DNA from: an uncultured Pseudomonadota bacterium
GTDB taxonomy: Bacteria; Pseudomonadota; Gammaproteobacteria; Burkholderiales; Rhodocyclaceae
Length of the DNA: 64,000 bases
Direction: 5' to 3'
Assembly: GCA_903870055.1 (NCBI GenBank)
Contig: CAIQBG010000024.1
Location: 1-64,000 of the forward strand
Position numbers and translations under genes: made by a program. Every line of letters begins with the position of its first letter. Positions within the stretch are counted from its first letter, which is position 1. Of the stretch, positions 27,304 through 61,132 are shown in pieces. A model generated the notes under the pieces. The model worked only from the letters and a program-made list of their open reading frames with translations. It was not told the DNA's origin and did not search any database.

Positions 27304-27388
27304 TGGTGCCTCGGGTCGGAATCGAACCGACACTCCTTTCGGAACCGGATTTTGAGTCCGGCGCGTCTACCAGTTCCACCACCGAGGC
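27304..27388 (-). tRNA. tRNA-Leu (anticodon CAA)
   Basis: An 85-nt cloverleaf read leftward from 27388. GCCTCGG pairs with CCGAGGC in the acceptor stem, the anticodon arm is CCGGA-CTCAAAA-TCCGG with anticodon CAA, a long variable arm marks class II, and GGTTCGATTCC is the T arm. The CCA end is encoded (27304-27306). It decodes UUG. Confidence 0.96.
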
Positions 27389-54673: not shown

Positions 54674-55765
54674 TTACTTGTCTGCGATTACCAGACGGCG
54701 TTGACGCACGCCTTCCGCCAACTGATCAAGCAGCTTGACGCTGTCTTCCCAGTTGATACAGGCATCAGTAATGCTCACGCCGTAATCTAGTGGCTTACCC
54801 GCCACCAGATCCTGACGGCCTGCATTGATATGCGACTCCACCATCACGCCCATGATGCGTTCTTCACCATTTGCCAGCTGTGCAGCCACATCGGTACTAA
54901 CTTCCATCTGACGCTGATATTCCTTGCGGCTATTGCCATGAGAGAAGTCAATCATCACACGTGCCGGAATGCCAGCTTTAGCCATATCGGTACAAGCCGC
55001 ATCAACGCTGGCCGCATCATAGTTAGGCTCTTTACCACCACGCAGAATCACATGGCAATCTTCATTGCCCAGCGTCTGCACAATGGCGGCATGGCCTGAT
55101 TTAGTGACTGATAGGAAGTGGTGTGGTGACTGTGCCGAACGAATGGCATCCAGCGCGATGCGCACATTGCCATCTGTACCATTCTTGAAGCCTACCGGGC
55201 ACGATAGACCCGAGGCCAATTCCCGGTGCACTTGCGACTCGGTTGTGCGGGCACCAATAGCACCCCAGCTGATCAGATCGCCCACGTACTGCGGCGTGAT
55301 CATATCCAGGAATTCCGTGGCACACGGGAGGCCAATGGTGTTTACATCGAGCAGCAGTTTGCGGGCGCGGCGTAGGCCTTCGTTAATGTCAAAGCTGTTG
55401 TCCAGATGCGGATCGTTGATCAGCCCTTTCCAACCCACCGTTGTGCGCGGCTTCTCAAAATAAACGCGCATCACAATCAAAAGATCATCGGATAGACGTT
55501 CTGCTTCAACTGCCAGGCGGCGTGCATAATCCAGCGCCATTTCCGGTTCGTGAATCGAGCAAGGCCCAATCACAACCACCAGACGATCGTCCGCGCCATG
55601 CAGCACGCGGTGAATACCATGACGTGCCGCCGTAACGCGTTGTGCCACAGGCGCGCTCACCGGGAAAGCATTCAGCACACTGGACGGCGGCGCCAACTCA
55701 CTGATAGCGCCAATGCGTACATCATCGGTGCTGGTCTGGGTCGTTGTGTTTCTAGTTTCAACCAT
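54674..55765 (-). CDS. 3-deoxy-7-phosphoheptulonate synthase (class I, AroFGH type)
   Basis: First step of the shikimate pathway: condenses phosphoenolpyruvate and erythrose-4-phosphate. The 363-residue class I enzyme has VVIGPCSIHEPEMALDYARRL, YFEKPRTTVGWKGLINDPHLD, GARTTESQVHRELASGLSCPVGFKNGTDGN and MIDFSHGNSRK, all AroF/G/H signatures. Which aromatic amino acid inhibits it cannot be read. ATG 55765 is preferred over 55771 because it places AGGGA at 6 nt. Confidence 0.94.
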   Translation of the reverse strand: MVETRNTTTQTSTDDVRIGAISELAPPSSVLNAFPVSAPVAQRVTAARHGIHRVLHGADDRLVVVIGPCSIHEPEMALDYARRLAVEAERLSDDLLIVMRVYFEKPRTTVGWKGLINDPHLDNSFDINEGLRRARKLLLDVNTIGLPCATEFLDMITPQYVGDLISWGAIGARTTESQVHRELASGLSCPVGFKNGTDGNVRIALDAIRSAQSPHHFLSVTKSGHAAIVQTLGNEDCHVILRGGKEPNYDAASVDAACTDMAKAGIPARVMIDFSHGNSRKEYQRQMEVSTDVAAQLANGEERIMGVMVESHINAGRQDLVAGKPLDYGVSITDACINWEDSVKLLDQLAEGVRQRRLVIADK

Positions 55766-55783
55766 GATCATTCCCTGAGAGTC

Positions 55784-57328
55784 TCAAACGCCTTCTTGCG
55801 GGTTAAGTTTTGCCGGTTCGTTGTGCAGGCGGTTTAAGGCATTAAGGTAAGCCTTCACCGAAGCAATGACGATATCGGTATCGGCACCACTGCCATTCAC
55901 CACACGACCACCCCTCGAAAGACGCACTGTTACGTCGCCCTGGGCATCCGTACCGGAAGTGATGTTATTCACTGAATACAGGAGCAATTCGCAACCCGTA
56001 TTAAGCACCGATTCAATCGCCTTGAAGGTGGCATCTACCGGACCAGAACCTGTGGACTCAGCTTTCTTCTCTTCTCCACCTACGGACAACGTCAAACGCG
56101 CCACAGGCACTTCGCCTGTTTCGGAAGTCACTTGCGAATAGGTGAGCTTGTAGTGTTCGGTTTCCGGCGTGACAGCTTCATCAGAAAGCAAAGCCTGAAG
56201 GTCTTCATCAAAGATCTCATGCTTCTTGTCGGCAAGCTCCTTGAAGCGGGCAAAAGCCGAGTTAAGCGCTTCTTCGCTTTCAAGCACTACACCAAGCTCG
56301 TTCAAACGCGACTTAAACGCATTGCGACCAGAATGCTTACCAAGCACAAGCTTGTTCTGCGACCAGCCCACATCTTCTGCACGCATGATCTCGTAGGTTT
56401 CGCGATGCTTGAGGACGCCATCCTGGTGAATGCCAGATTCGTGGGCAAATGCATTTGCACCAACTATCGCCTTGTTAGGCTGCACCGGGTAACCCGTAAT
56501 TTGCGAGATAAGTTTCGAGGCTGGCACGATCTGTGTGGCATCGATTCGTGTTTCTACCGGGAAGACATCGGCGCGCGTGCGTACCGCCATCACCACTTCT
56601 TCGAGCGATGCATTACCGGCACGCTCACCCAAGCCGTTAACCGTACATTCCACTTGACGGGCACCAGCGATCACTGCAGCCAAAGAATTGGCAACCGCCA
56701 AACCAAGATCGTTGTGGCAATGGACCGACCAGACCACTTTGTCCGAACCCGGCACACGCTCGATGAGCTGACGGATCGTTTCGGCGTACTGACCTGGGAC
56801 GTTGTAGCCCACGGTATCGGGCACATTCAGGGTGGTCGCACCGGCTTTGATGACGGCTTCGAAGACACGGCAGAGGAAATCAATATCCGAACGGCCGGCA
56901 TCTTCTGCCGAGAACTCCACATCGTCCGTGTATTCACGTGCCCAGCCAATAGCCTTCACTGCTTGCTCGACCACCTGATCCGGTGTCATGCGGAGTTTTT
57001 TCTCCATATGAATCGGGCTAGTAGCGATAAAGGTATGGACACGCTTGCGTGGTGCCGGGGCAATTGCCTCGCCCGCACGACGGATATCGTTTTCATTGGC
57101 GCGTGCCAATGAACAGATCGTCGATTCACGAATCACCTGAGCGATCGAGTTAATCGAATCAAAGTCACCCGGCGATGCAGCTGCAAAACCAGCCTCGATC
57201 ACATCCACGCGCATACGCTCCAACTGGCGTGCAACACGGATCTTCTCGTCCTTGGTCATTGAAGCACCCGGGCTCTGTTCGCCATCGCGCAAGGTGGTAT
57301 CAAAAATAATCAATTGGTCTTTTTTCAT
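55784..57328 (-). CDS. leuA: 2-isopropylmalate synthase
   Basis: First committed step of leucine synthesis. It has 514 residues: the catalytic TIM barrel with [17 protein letters not shown] at the start and [18 protein letters not shown] with [16 protein letters not shown] (zinc His motif) further on, then the C-terminal regulatory domain ([20 protein letters not shown]), which in this family binds leucine for feedback inhibition. A TAGGAG ribosome site precedes the ATG. Upstream lies a leader-peptide gene and a hairpin, indicating leucine-controlled attenuation. Confidence 0.96.
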
Positions 57329-57386
57329 GTCAGGCTCCTACGGGCGAGGCAATTTGTGTGCCCATGCCCTAAATCAAAATCGGGGT

Positions 57387-57404
57387 TCCGGCTAAGGCGC
57401 CGGA
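57387..57404 (-). terminator. Candidate attenuator hairpin upstream of leuA
   Basis: Read leftward: TCCGGC-GCCTTA-GCCGGA, a 6-bp G+C-rich stem with a 6-nt loop, then the T-rich ATTTTGATTT. It lies 26 nt after the leader-peptide stop and 58 nt before leuA. The alternative pairing of GGCGC in the leader codons with GCGCC at the start of this hairpin would break it, as attenuation requires. Confidence 0.5.
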
Positions 57405-57430
57405 TCAGTCATGGCAATGCGAGTGGGGGT

Positions 57431-57565
57431 TTATAGTGTGCGCGCCACGCGCAGCAGCGGCCGTGCACCCAGCAGCAGATGCAGCCAATAAGTCGCGCGG
57501 CCACCCGAGGACACCTTGAGAGTGCCAGTGGCATTAGCGAAAAGAATCATAAACATTGCAGACAT
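57431..57565 (-). CDS. leuL: Leucine-rich leader peptide of leuA (candidate leuL)
   Basis: A 44-codon reading frame read from ATG 57565 to TAA at 57433-57431. The product begins MSAMFMILFANATGT and ends WLHLLLGARPLLRVARTL. Nine of 44 residues are leucine; codons 28-38 (57484-57452) contain six, including a LLL run. A ribosome starved of leucyl-tRNA would stall there. The frame sits between a strong promoter and a hairpin before leuA, the arrangement of leucine attenuators. Because it is short it could be overlooked by gene finders. No Shine-Dalgarno sequence; it appears leaderless. Confidence 0.75.
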   Translation of the reverse strand: MSAMFMILFANATGTLKVSSGGRATYWLHLLLGARPLLRVARTL

Positions 57566-57572
57566 GGGTTGT

Positions 57573-57601
57573 AATATAAGCCCTAGAAGGGTCTCTGGCA
57601 A
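57573..57601 (-). promoter_or_regulatory. Sigma70-type promoter for the leuA leader
   Basis: TTGCCA (57601-57596), a 17-bp spacer and TATATT (57578-57573): five of six consensus bases in each hexamer with ideal spacing. The -10 ends 7 nt before the leader ATG, so transcription would start at or next to it. This is the best promoter match in the window. Confidence 0.75.
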
Positions 57602-61056: not shown

Positions 61057-61132
61057 TGGTGCCGATGGCCGGAATCGAACTGGCGACCTTCGCATTACGA
61101 ATGCGCTGCTCTACCAACTGAGCTACATCGGC
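61057..61132 (-). tRNA. tRNA-Thr (anticodon CGT)
   Basis: A 76-nt cloverleaf read from 61132. GCCGATG pairs with CATCGGC in the acceptor stem; the anticodon loop is TTCGTAA, anticodon CGT; T arm GCCAG-TTCGATT-CCGGC has one weak pair. CCA is encoded (61057-61059). It decodes ACG. It is close to E. coli thrW-type tRNA. Confidence 0.95.

Follow-up and report, generated by a model that had tools for sequence, protein, structure and literature searches.

The analyzed window, i.e., the whole stretch of 64,000 nucleotides, contains a leuA gene for 2-isopropylmalate synthase that is preceded by a short, leucine-rich open reading frame with a promoter-like sequence directly in front of it. The identity of LeuA is firm (NF002087 at 923.6 bits, with a cut-off of 729). 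The following features of the locus, listed in the order of transcription, are treated below:

57573-57601, minus strand: promoter TTGCCA-17-TATATT, the -10 box of which ends 7 nt before the leader ATG (promoter scan; conserved spacing)
57431-57565, minus strand: leuL-like leader peptide ORF of 44 codons, predicted to be leaderless (same-genus counterparts L003-L005 and frame test)
57452-57484, minus strand: Leu-rich control codons, codons 28-38, LHLLLGARPLL (Leu enrichment across 118 leaders)
57439-57453, minus strand: hairpin TGCGCG-TGG-CGCGCA inside the conserved codons CTG CTG CGC NNN GCG CGC (89 of 90 loci; codon constraint)
57413-57430, minus strand: stretch rich in C and poor in G that immediately follows the leader stop, ACCCCCACTCGCATTGCC, a candidate part of a Rho loading site (base composition; predicted to be unpaired)
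57387-57404, minus strand: downstream hairpin TCCGGC-GCCTTA-GCCGGA without an adjacent U-tract (arm coevolution; not terminator-like)
57335-57339, minus strand: Shine-Dalgarno (SD) motif AGGAG of leuA (letters of the window)
55784-57328, minus strand: leuA, 2-isopropylmalate synthase, the regulated gene (NF002087, TIGR00973)

The leader frame (MSAMFMILFANATGTLKVSSGGRATYWLHLLLGARPLLRVARTL) has nine Leu codons, six of them in codons 28-38, just as the original prediction had described it. The near-consensus promoter that it had proposed was also found; it matches the consensus at 10 of 12 positions and was the best of four promoter-like sites in a scanned region of 5 kb, for which 3.5 sites would be expected by chance. 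A hairpin of 6 bp with a weak tail 58 nt ahead of leuA was likewise present, and it was not listed by the terminator scan. As, in addition, the leader RNA of the window was not more stable than shuffled sequences (z +0.56), the window taken by itself is compatible with chance. The leader had been called uncatalogued, and this held for every library searched. Rfam yielded no match to the leader in the window, at the gathering score or at an E value of 5, and none in 20 relatives at the gathering score, and searches of Pfam and NCBIfam with the leader peptides yielded no significant match. The Rfam scan of the window located tRNA genes at 61060-61132 and 27307-27388, both on the minus strand.

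A second biosynthetic gene follows leuA in the same direction. It starts 12 nt after leuA (54674-55771, minus strand) and was named by eye from its sequence as an aroG-like DAHP synthase gene. The same arrangement was seen in the same-genus loci L003 and L004. The control exerted by the leuA leader may extend to the synthesis of aromatic amino acids.

The distribution of the leader was analyzed with leuA upstream regions from 200 genomes of the same family, 80 named contigs, and extra regions. A leader was scored as present in 96 of 184 unique upstream regions, which is about half of the sample. For the statistics, six weak or deviant loci were dropped and loci found with a nucleotide pattern were added, resulting in a set of 118 loci, 90 of which had been found by leuA homology only. 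The loci found with the exact pattern were left out of the codon and hairpin statistics and kept in the promoter, terminator, and coevolution statistics. About 20 families of the order have counterparts of the window leader ahead of genes for 2-isopropylmalate synthase; typical peptides are MVTFLHTGFLSLRALLLARPLLRCAR, MTFERDPSLLSLRLLPAGLLLGPLLRPAR, and MHFSRHISQLHSTSSLLAALLLRVAR. The culturable species Aromatoleum toluclasticum and Nitrosomonas eutropha are among the carriers. Most leaders have a length of 23-46 codons. In the three same-genus loci, the frame and the ending are kept, while the length shifts by whole codons (39 or 44 codons). The Leu codons are retained in the relatives, and across the 118 leaders the fraction of Leu is 0.36 in the second half versus 0.17 in the first half. 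As far as comparison of sequences can tell, the observation made in the window is real and extends far beyond one genome.

Among 399 sampled genomes of the order, 58 contained the pattern CTGCTGCGCNNNGCGCGCTRA from the leader end, versus a single match for the reversed control. In a sample of the class, nearly all of it from other orders, it was found in 1 of 274 genomes. The window leader is a variant with two extra codons and is therefore missed by the exact pattern. At all 30 pattern loci that were read, the downstream gene encodes a 2-isopropylmalate synthase of either the LeuA type or the long-form type, so that the 21-nt signature is useful for annotation. The control element tracks this function and not the particular gene. 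The loci L129-L134 and L116 carry this leader element in front of a 2-isopropylmalate synthase of the long form, an enzyme that differs in type from the LeuA of the window. A c-di-GMP-I riboswitch (Rfam RF01051, 65.3 bits) lies near one of these loci (L129:2223-2301, minus strand).

Other short reading frames were also seen ahead of leuA. In the gammaproteobacterial leuA loci L094 and L110, a Leu-rich ORF follows a TATAGT box, and its stop codon lies inside an inverted repeat resembling CTGCCCTAGGGCAG; this ORF is possibly a distant or parallel version of the leader. In three Methylotenera-like contigs (L052, L056, L074), another conserved short ORF (MLN...AVS...ALxLRKxLALR...LR) is located upstream of leuA and begins 9 nt after a TATATT sequence.

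The distance between promoter and start codon is a conserved property of the leaders. In 103 of the 118 loci, the best -10 hexamer lies 6-7 nt ahead of the leader ATG, and the commonest hexamers are TATATT (45 loci) and TATAGT (44 loci). With the -10 box at this distance, transcription is predicted to start on the A of the ATG or right beside it, without space for an SD motif. The original prediction had called the leader apparently leaderless, and as a prediction this is right. The leader transcript is predicted to be leaderless, and the underlying geometry is not a quirk of one genome. The calling of leaders partly used the promoter and the ending as criteria, and therefore, the cleanest, non-circular evidence comes from a frame test. 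For this test, 83 loci were picked solely by the nucleotide pattern at the leader end, and a strict -10 box followed at 6-7 nt by an ATG was sought upstream in any frame. It was found in 58 of the 83 loci, and in all 58 the ATG was in frame and open to the stop codon. Selection for leaderlessness in a leader peptide is unusual. With a leaderless start, ribosomes would load at the 5′ end once it emerges, which may be important for synchronizing the ribosome with RNA polymerase.

The end of the leader is near-invariant and consists of the codons CTG CTG CGC NNN GCG CGC (LLRxAR) close to the stop codon. Codons were counted in 74 leaders that end with LLRx[AG]R, all of them found by leuA homology. 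CTG was used in 71 and 73 cases at the two Leu positions, CGC in 74 cases at each of the two Arg positions, and GCG in 72 cases at the Ala position, while any codon occurs at the fourth position. Elsewhere in these leaders and in leuA, only 42-47% of the Leu, 53-62% of the Arg, and 33-37% of the Ala residues are encoded by the same codons. At the nucleotide level, this ending forms a hairpin, TGCGC-N3-GCGC(G/A), with a loop of 3-7 nt across the loci. A stem with four or more GC pairs that ends within 12 nt of the stop codon was found in 89 of 90 loci, compared to 0-28% at most other offsets; higher frequencies 50-60 nt downstream reflect the second hairpin. At four loci (L063, L077, L082, L102), the frame or the peptide is altered and the hairpin is retained, and three others (L065, L086, L111) have the compensatory change UGCCC/GGGCA. 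Both observations argue that selection acts on the RNA. The thermodynamic z-scores of this hairpin alone were not below those of shuffled sequences, because sequences this rich in G and C mostly fold even when shuffled. For this hairpin, it is the conservation of position and not stability that counts. As a speculation, it may slow the ribosome or the polymerase, or it may keep the Leu codons off the downstream arm. A pairing of GCAG after the stop codon with CTGC of the Leu codons was considered and rejected, as just 25 of the 118 loci have GCAG there, and its frequency further downstream is no lower.

The leader stop codon is directly followed by a nearly G-free stretch. In the first 16 nt, G accounts for 2-5% and C for up to 66% of the nucleotides, and no more than one G is present in 82 of 90 loci. 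The predicted pairing after the stop is 0.15-0.26, compared to 0.30-0.49 in shuffled sequences, and it exceeds that of the shuffles at about 30-55 nt. Over 80 nt around the leader stop, the median C/G ratio is 1.84 versus 0.95 at the leuA start. C-rich, G-poor, and unstructured RNA near the leader stop, as in Rho-dependent leader attenuators of the tnaC or CruR type, is thus present; C-rich RNA by itself is not proof of a rut site. This stretch and the hairpin-forming end codons are two of the strongest signals, and both were absent from the original prediction. Together they would make a compact and testable layout for an attenuation that needs no terminator.

Further downstream, the second hairpin is kept in the relatives. 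Coevolution was tested for 13 region pairs, and only two of them survive strict correction, namely the two halves of the region from +15 to +65, which form the strongest pair (z -7.1, 78 loci), and the leader regions -66 to -36 and -36 to -18 (z -3.4). The pair of leader region -66 to -36 and the downstream 3′ arm showed weak coevolution (z -2.6, p 0.006), which hints at refolding instead of Rho. The classical 2:3 pairing between leader region -36 to -18 and downstream region +15 to +40 showed no coevolution (z +1.3). A scan for hairpins followed by a U-tract yielded candidates in 21% of the 118 loci versus 18% of the shuffles, whereas the attenuator region of E. coli leuL, which was used as positive control, scored 26 in the same scan, above all 118 loci. 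A U-tract next to the stem is absent from the closest relatives of the window and from most of the 118 loci; the tails in the genus of the window are GATTTTGATTT, GATTTTGATTC, GATTGAATTT, and GATTGAATTC, none of which adjoins the stem. A fold of all 81 segments together with RNAalifold did not result in a consensus since the alignment was too divergent, but clade-wise folding did.

The original prediction had inferred that leuA is regulated by attenuation. The Leu-rich leader ahead of leuA and its predicted leaderless start stood up to the analysis, but the intrinsic-terminator attenuator and the mutually exclusive pairings that go with it did not. Of the characteristics of a leuL-type attenuator, the short translated ORF with control codons was found, and the intrinsic terminator and the 2:3 pairing were not. 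The leader thus appears to work like a Leu-sensing leader peptide but lacks two defining features of a classical attenuator.

Several known systems resemble the leader in part. Proteobacterial attenuators are reportedly the subject of a study by Vitreschak et al. in 2004. Like the window leader, E. coli leuL is a Leu-rich peptide just before leuA with a hairpin in between. It differs in having a run of four CTA codons in the middle of the peptide and a strong hairpin with a T-run, in contrast to LLRxAR at or near the stop, common CTG codons, no T-run, and a predicted leaderless start. The LeuL peptides of epsilonproteobacteria comprise 20-35 amino acids and carry Leu codons at their C-terminal end before leuA, which is similar, but the Leu codons are rare ones in C. 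jejuni, a ribosome binding site is predicted, and the RNA ends shortly after the leader stop (PMC3847290). The actinobacterial LEU element also has a Leu-codon leader upstream of leuA without an obvious terminator, and it contains a conserved pseudoknot (PMC1262725). A pairing of the Leu codons with the leuA SD motif is possible for that element; at our loci, a stem of leader and SD motif appears in the clade consensus folds, but the SD pairing is not above that of shuffles. That element belongs to another phylum and has another leader. The trpL (rnTrpL) leader ORF of Sinorhizobium meliloti begins right at the transcript's 5′ end and mediates transcription attenuation (PMC7298713). It is an alphaproteobacterial Trp leader, whereas here Leu is concerned and leaderlessness is predicted from the promoter position only. 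The upstream ORF CruR of Bordetella pertussis exerts Rho-dependent control over the following genes and senses copper via a nascent DUF2946 protein that carries the arrest motif RAPP (PMC9426467). It is not a Leu-codon sensor, but it is a betaproteobacterial upstream ORF that controls the genes after it, and the leader described here is a candidate for Rho-dependent control as well. No description of a betaproteobacterial leuA leader was found in the open-access literature searched; some member may already have been mentioned, for instance in the study of 2004.

From what is established for leader peptides, a ribosome would be expected to stall at the Leu codons while tRNA-Leu is uncharged. 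The reading to which we give an even chance is that of a leaderless, leuL-like leader that senses leucine for leuA and acts via Rho-dependent termination. The Leu codons would sense charged tRNA-Leu. With ample leucine, the ribosome would complete the leader and depart, and the C-rich RNA of the Leu-codon region and the stretch after the stop would become exposed. Rho could then load, and a polymerase slowed at the downstream hairpin would be terminated ahead of leuA. Under leucine shortage, the ribosome would stall on the Leu codons and cover part of the C-rich RNA, Rho would not load, and leuA would be transcribed. In favour of Rho are the unpaired and C-rich RNA around the leader stop, the lack of terminators, and the Bordetella upstream ORF as a precedent. 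It counts against this reading that about half of the sampled leuA upstream regions have no such leader and that a ribosome halted at the last pair of Leu codons extends only to about the stop codon, so that it would cover part and not all of the C-rich RNA. Leucine sensing by a translated leader is supported much better than the Rho step. On the best reading, the output is not intrinsic termination, and for the output step the first candidate would be Rho-dependent termination and the second a refolding that controls leuA translation. The hairpin at the end of the ORF is not explained by the Rho model and has no settled role in the refolding model either.

For the refolding model, ample leucine would let the leader RNA pair with the region after the stop and with the leuA SD motif; a stalled ribosome would break this pairing, so that the downstream hairpin forms alone and leuA is freed. 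Such a pairing would be akin to the one reported for the actinobacterial LEU element. The consensus folds of the clade alignments A-D place the SD motif in a basal stem together with the 5′ portion of the leader, downstream RNA is a better pairing partner of the Leu-rich region than shuffles are (z -0.86), and leader region -66 to -36 coevolves weakly with the downstream 3′ arm. In the window, the predicted paired probability of AGGAG is 0.79 with the full leader and 0.50 when the leader is masked. However, the pairing of the SD motif with the leader is not above that with shuffled leaders (0.494 versus 0.471, p 0.39), masking of the leader lowers SD pairing merely from 0.83 to 0.77, and coevolution involving the SD motif is weak (p 0.12 and 0.016 among the 13 tests). 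SD sequestration as the sole mechanism was rejected on the basis of the shuffles and the small relief by masking, and translational attenuation as a whole is rather unlikely, with perhaps one chance in a few. Classical attenuation, in which the downstream hairpin would be a weak intrinsic terminator and stalling would favour a 2:3 antiterminator, is improbable: leader peptide, Leu codons, and conserved hairpin do stand in the right order, and a few loci (e.g., L097, L220, L025) have terminator-like sites, but such sites are hardly more frequent than in shuffles, and neither 2:3 coevolution nor, within the genus, a stem-adjacent U-tract was found.

The strong conservation of the C-terminal residues, which reach the stop in most loci, would also be expected if LLRxAR were a ribosome-arrest sequence of the nascent peptide rather than a set of sensing codons. 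The constraint sits at the codon level, however, and lineages with an altered peptide (LKLRSRAN, LKLRQGAY, LLLPRRGH) keep the hairpin, one of them with compensatory bases, which makes nascent-peptide arrest very unlikely. Very unlikely as well is a reading in which TGCGC-N-GCGCA serves as a DNA operator to which a transcription factor binds. Its location downstream of the promoter and its form, a short inverted repeat, would suit an operator, but its spacer ranges from 3 to 7, it moves relative to the promoter as the leader becomes longer or shorter while staying with the end of an ORF, and in 48 of 90 loci a terminal G-U replaces the palindrome. That the ORF is a chance frame without a regulatory role has a negligible probability; the weak evidence from the window alone would agree with it, but the in-frame result at all 58 loci and the codon constraint across about 20 families refute it by comparison.

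Taken together, it is conceivable, although somewhat short of an even chance, that these leaders constitute a widespread betaproteobacterial class of leaderless, Leu-sensing elements controlling 2-isopropylmalate synthase with no intrinsic terminator involved, via the end-codon hairpin and the exposed G-free stretch, and by means of Rho or a new ribosome-dependent RNA switch. If true, this would explain the control of leucine synthesis in many betaproteobacteria for which the searched libraries list no such element.
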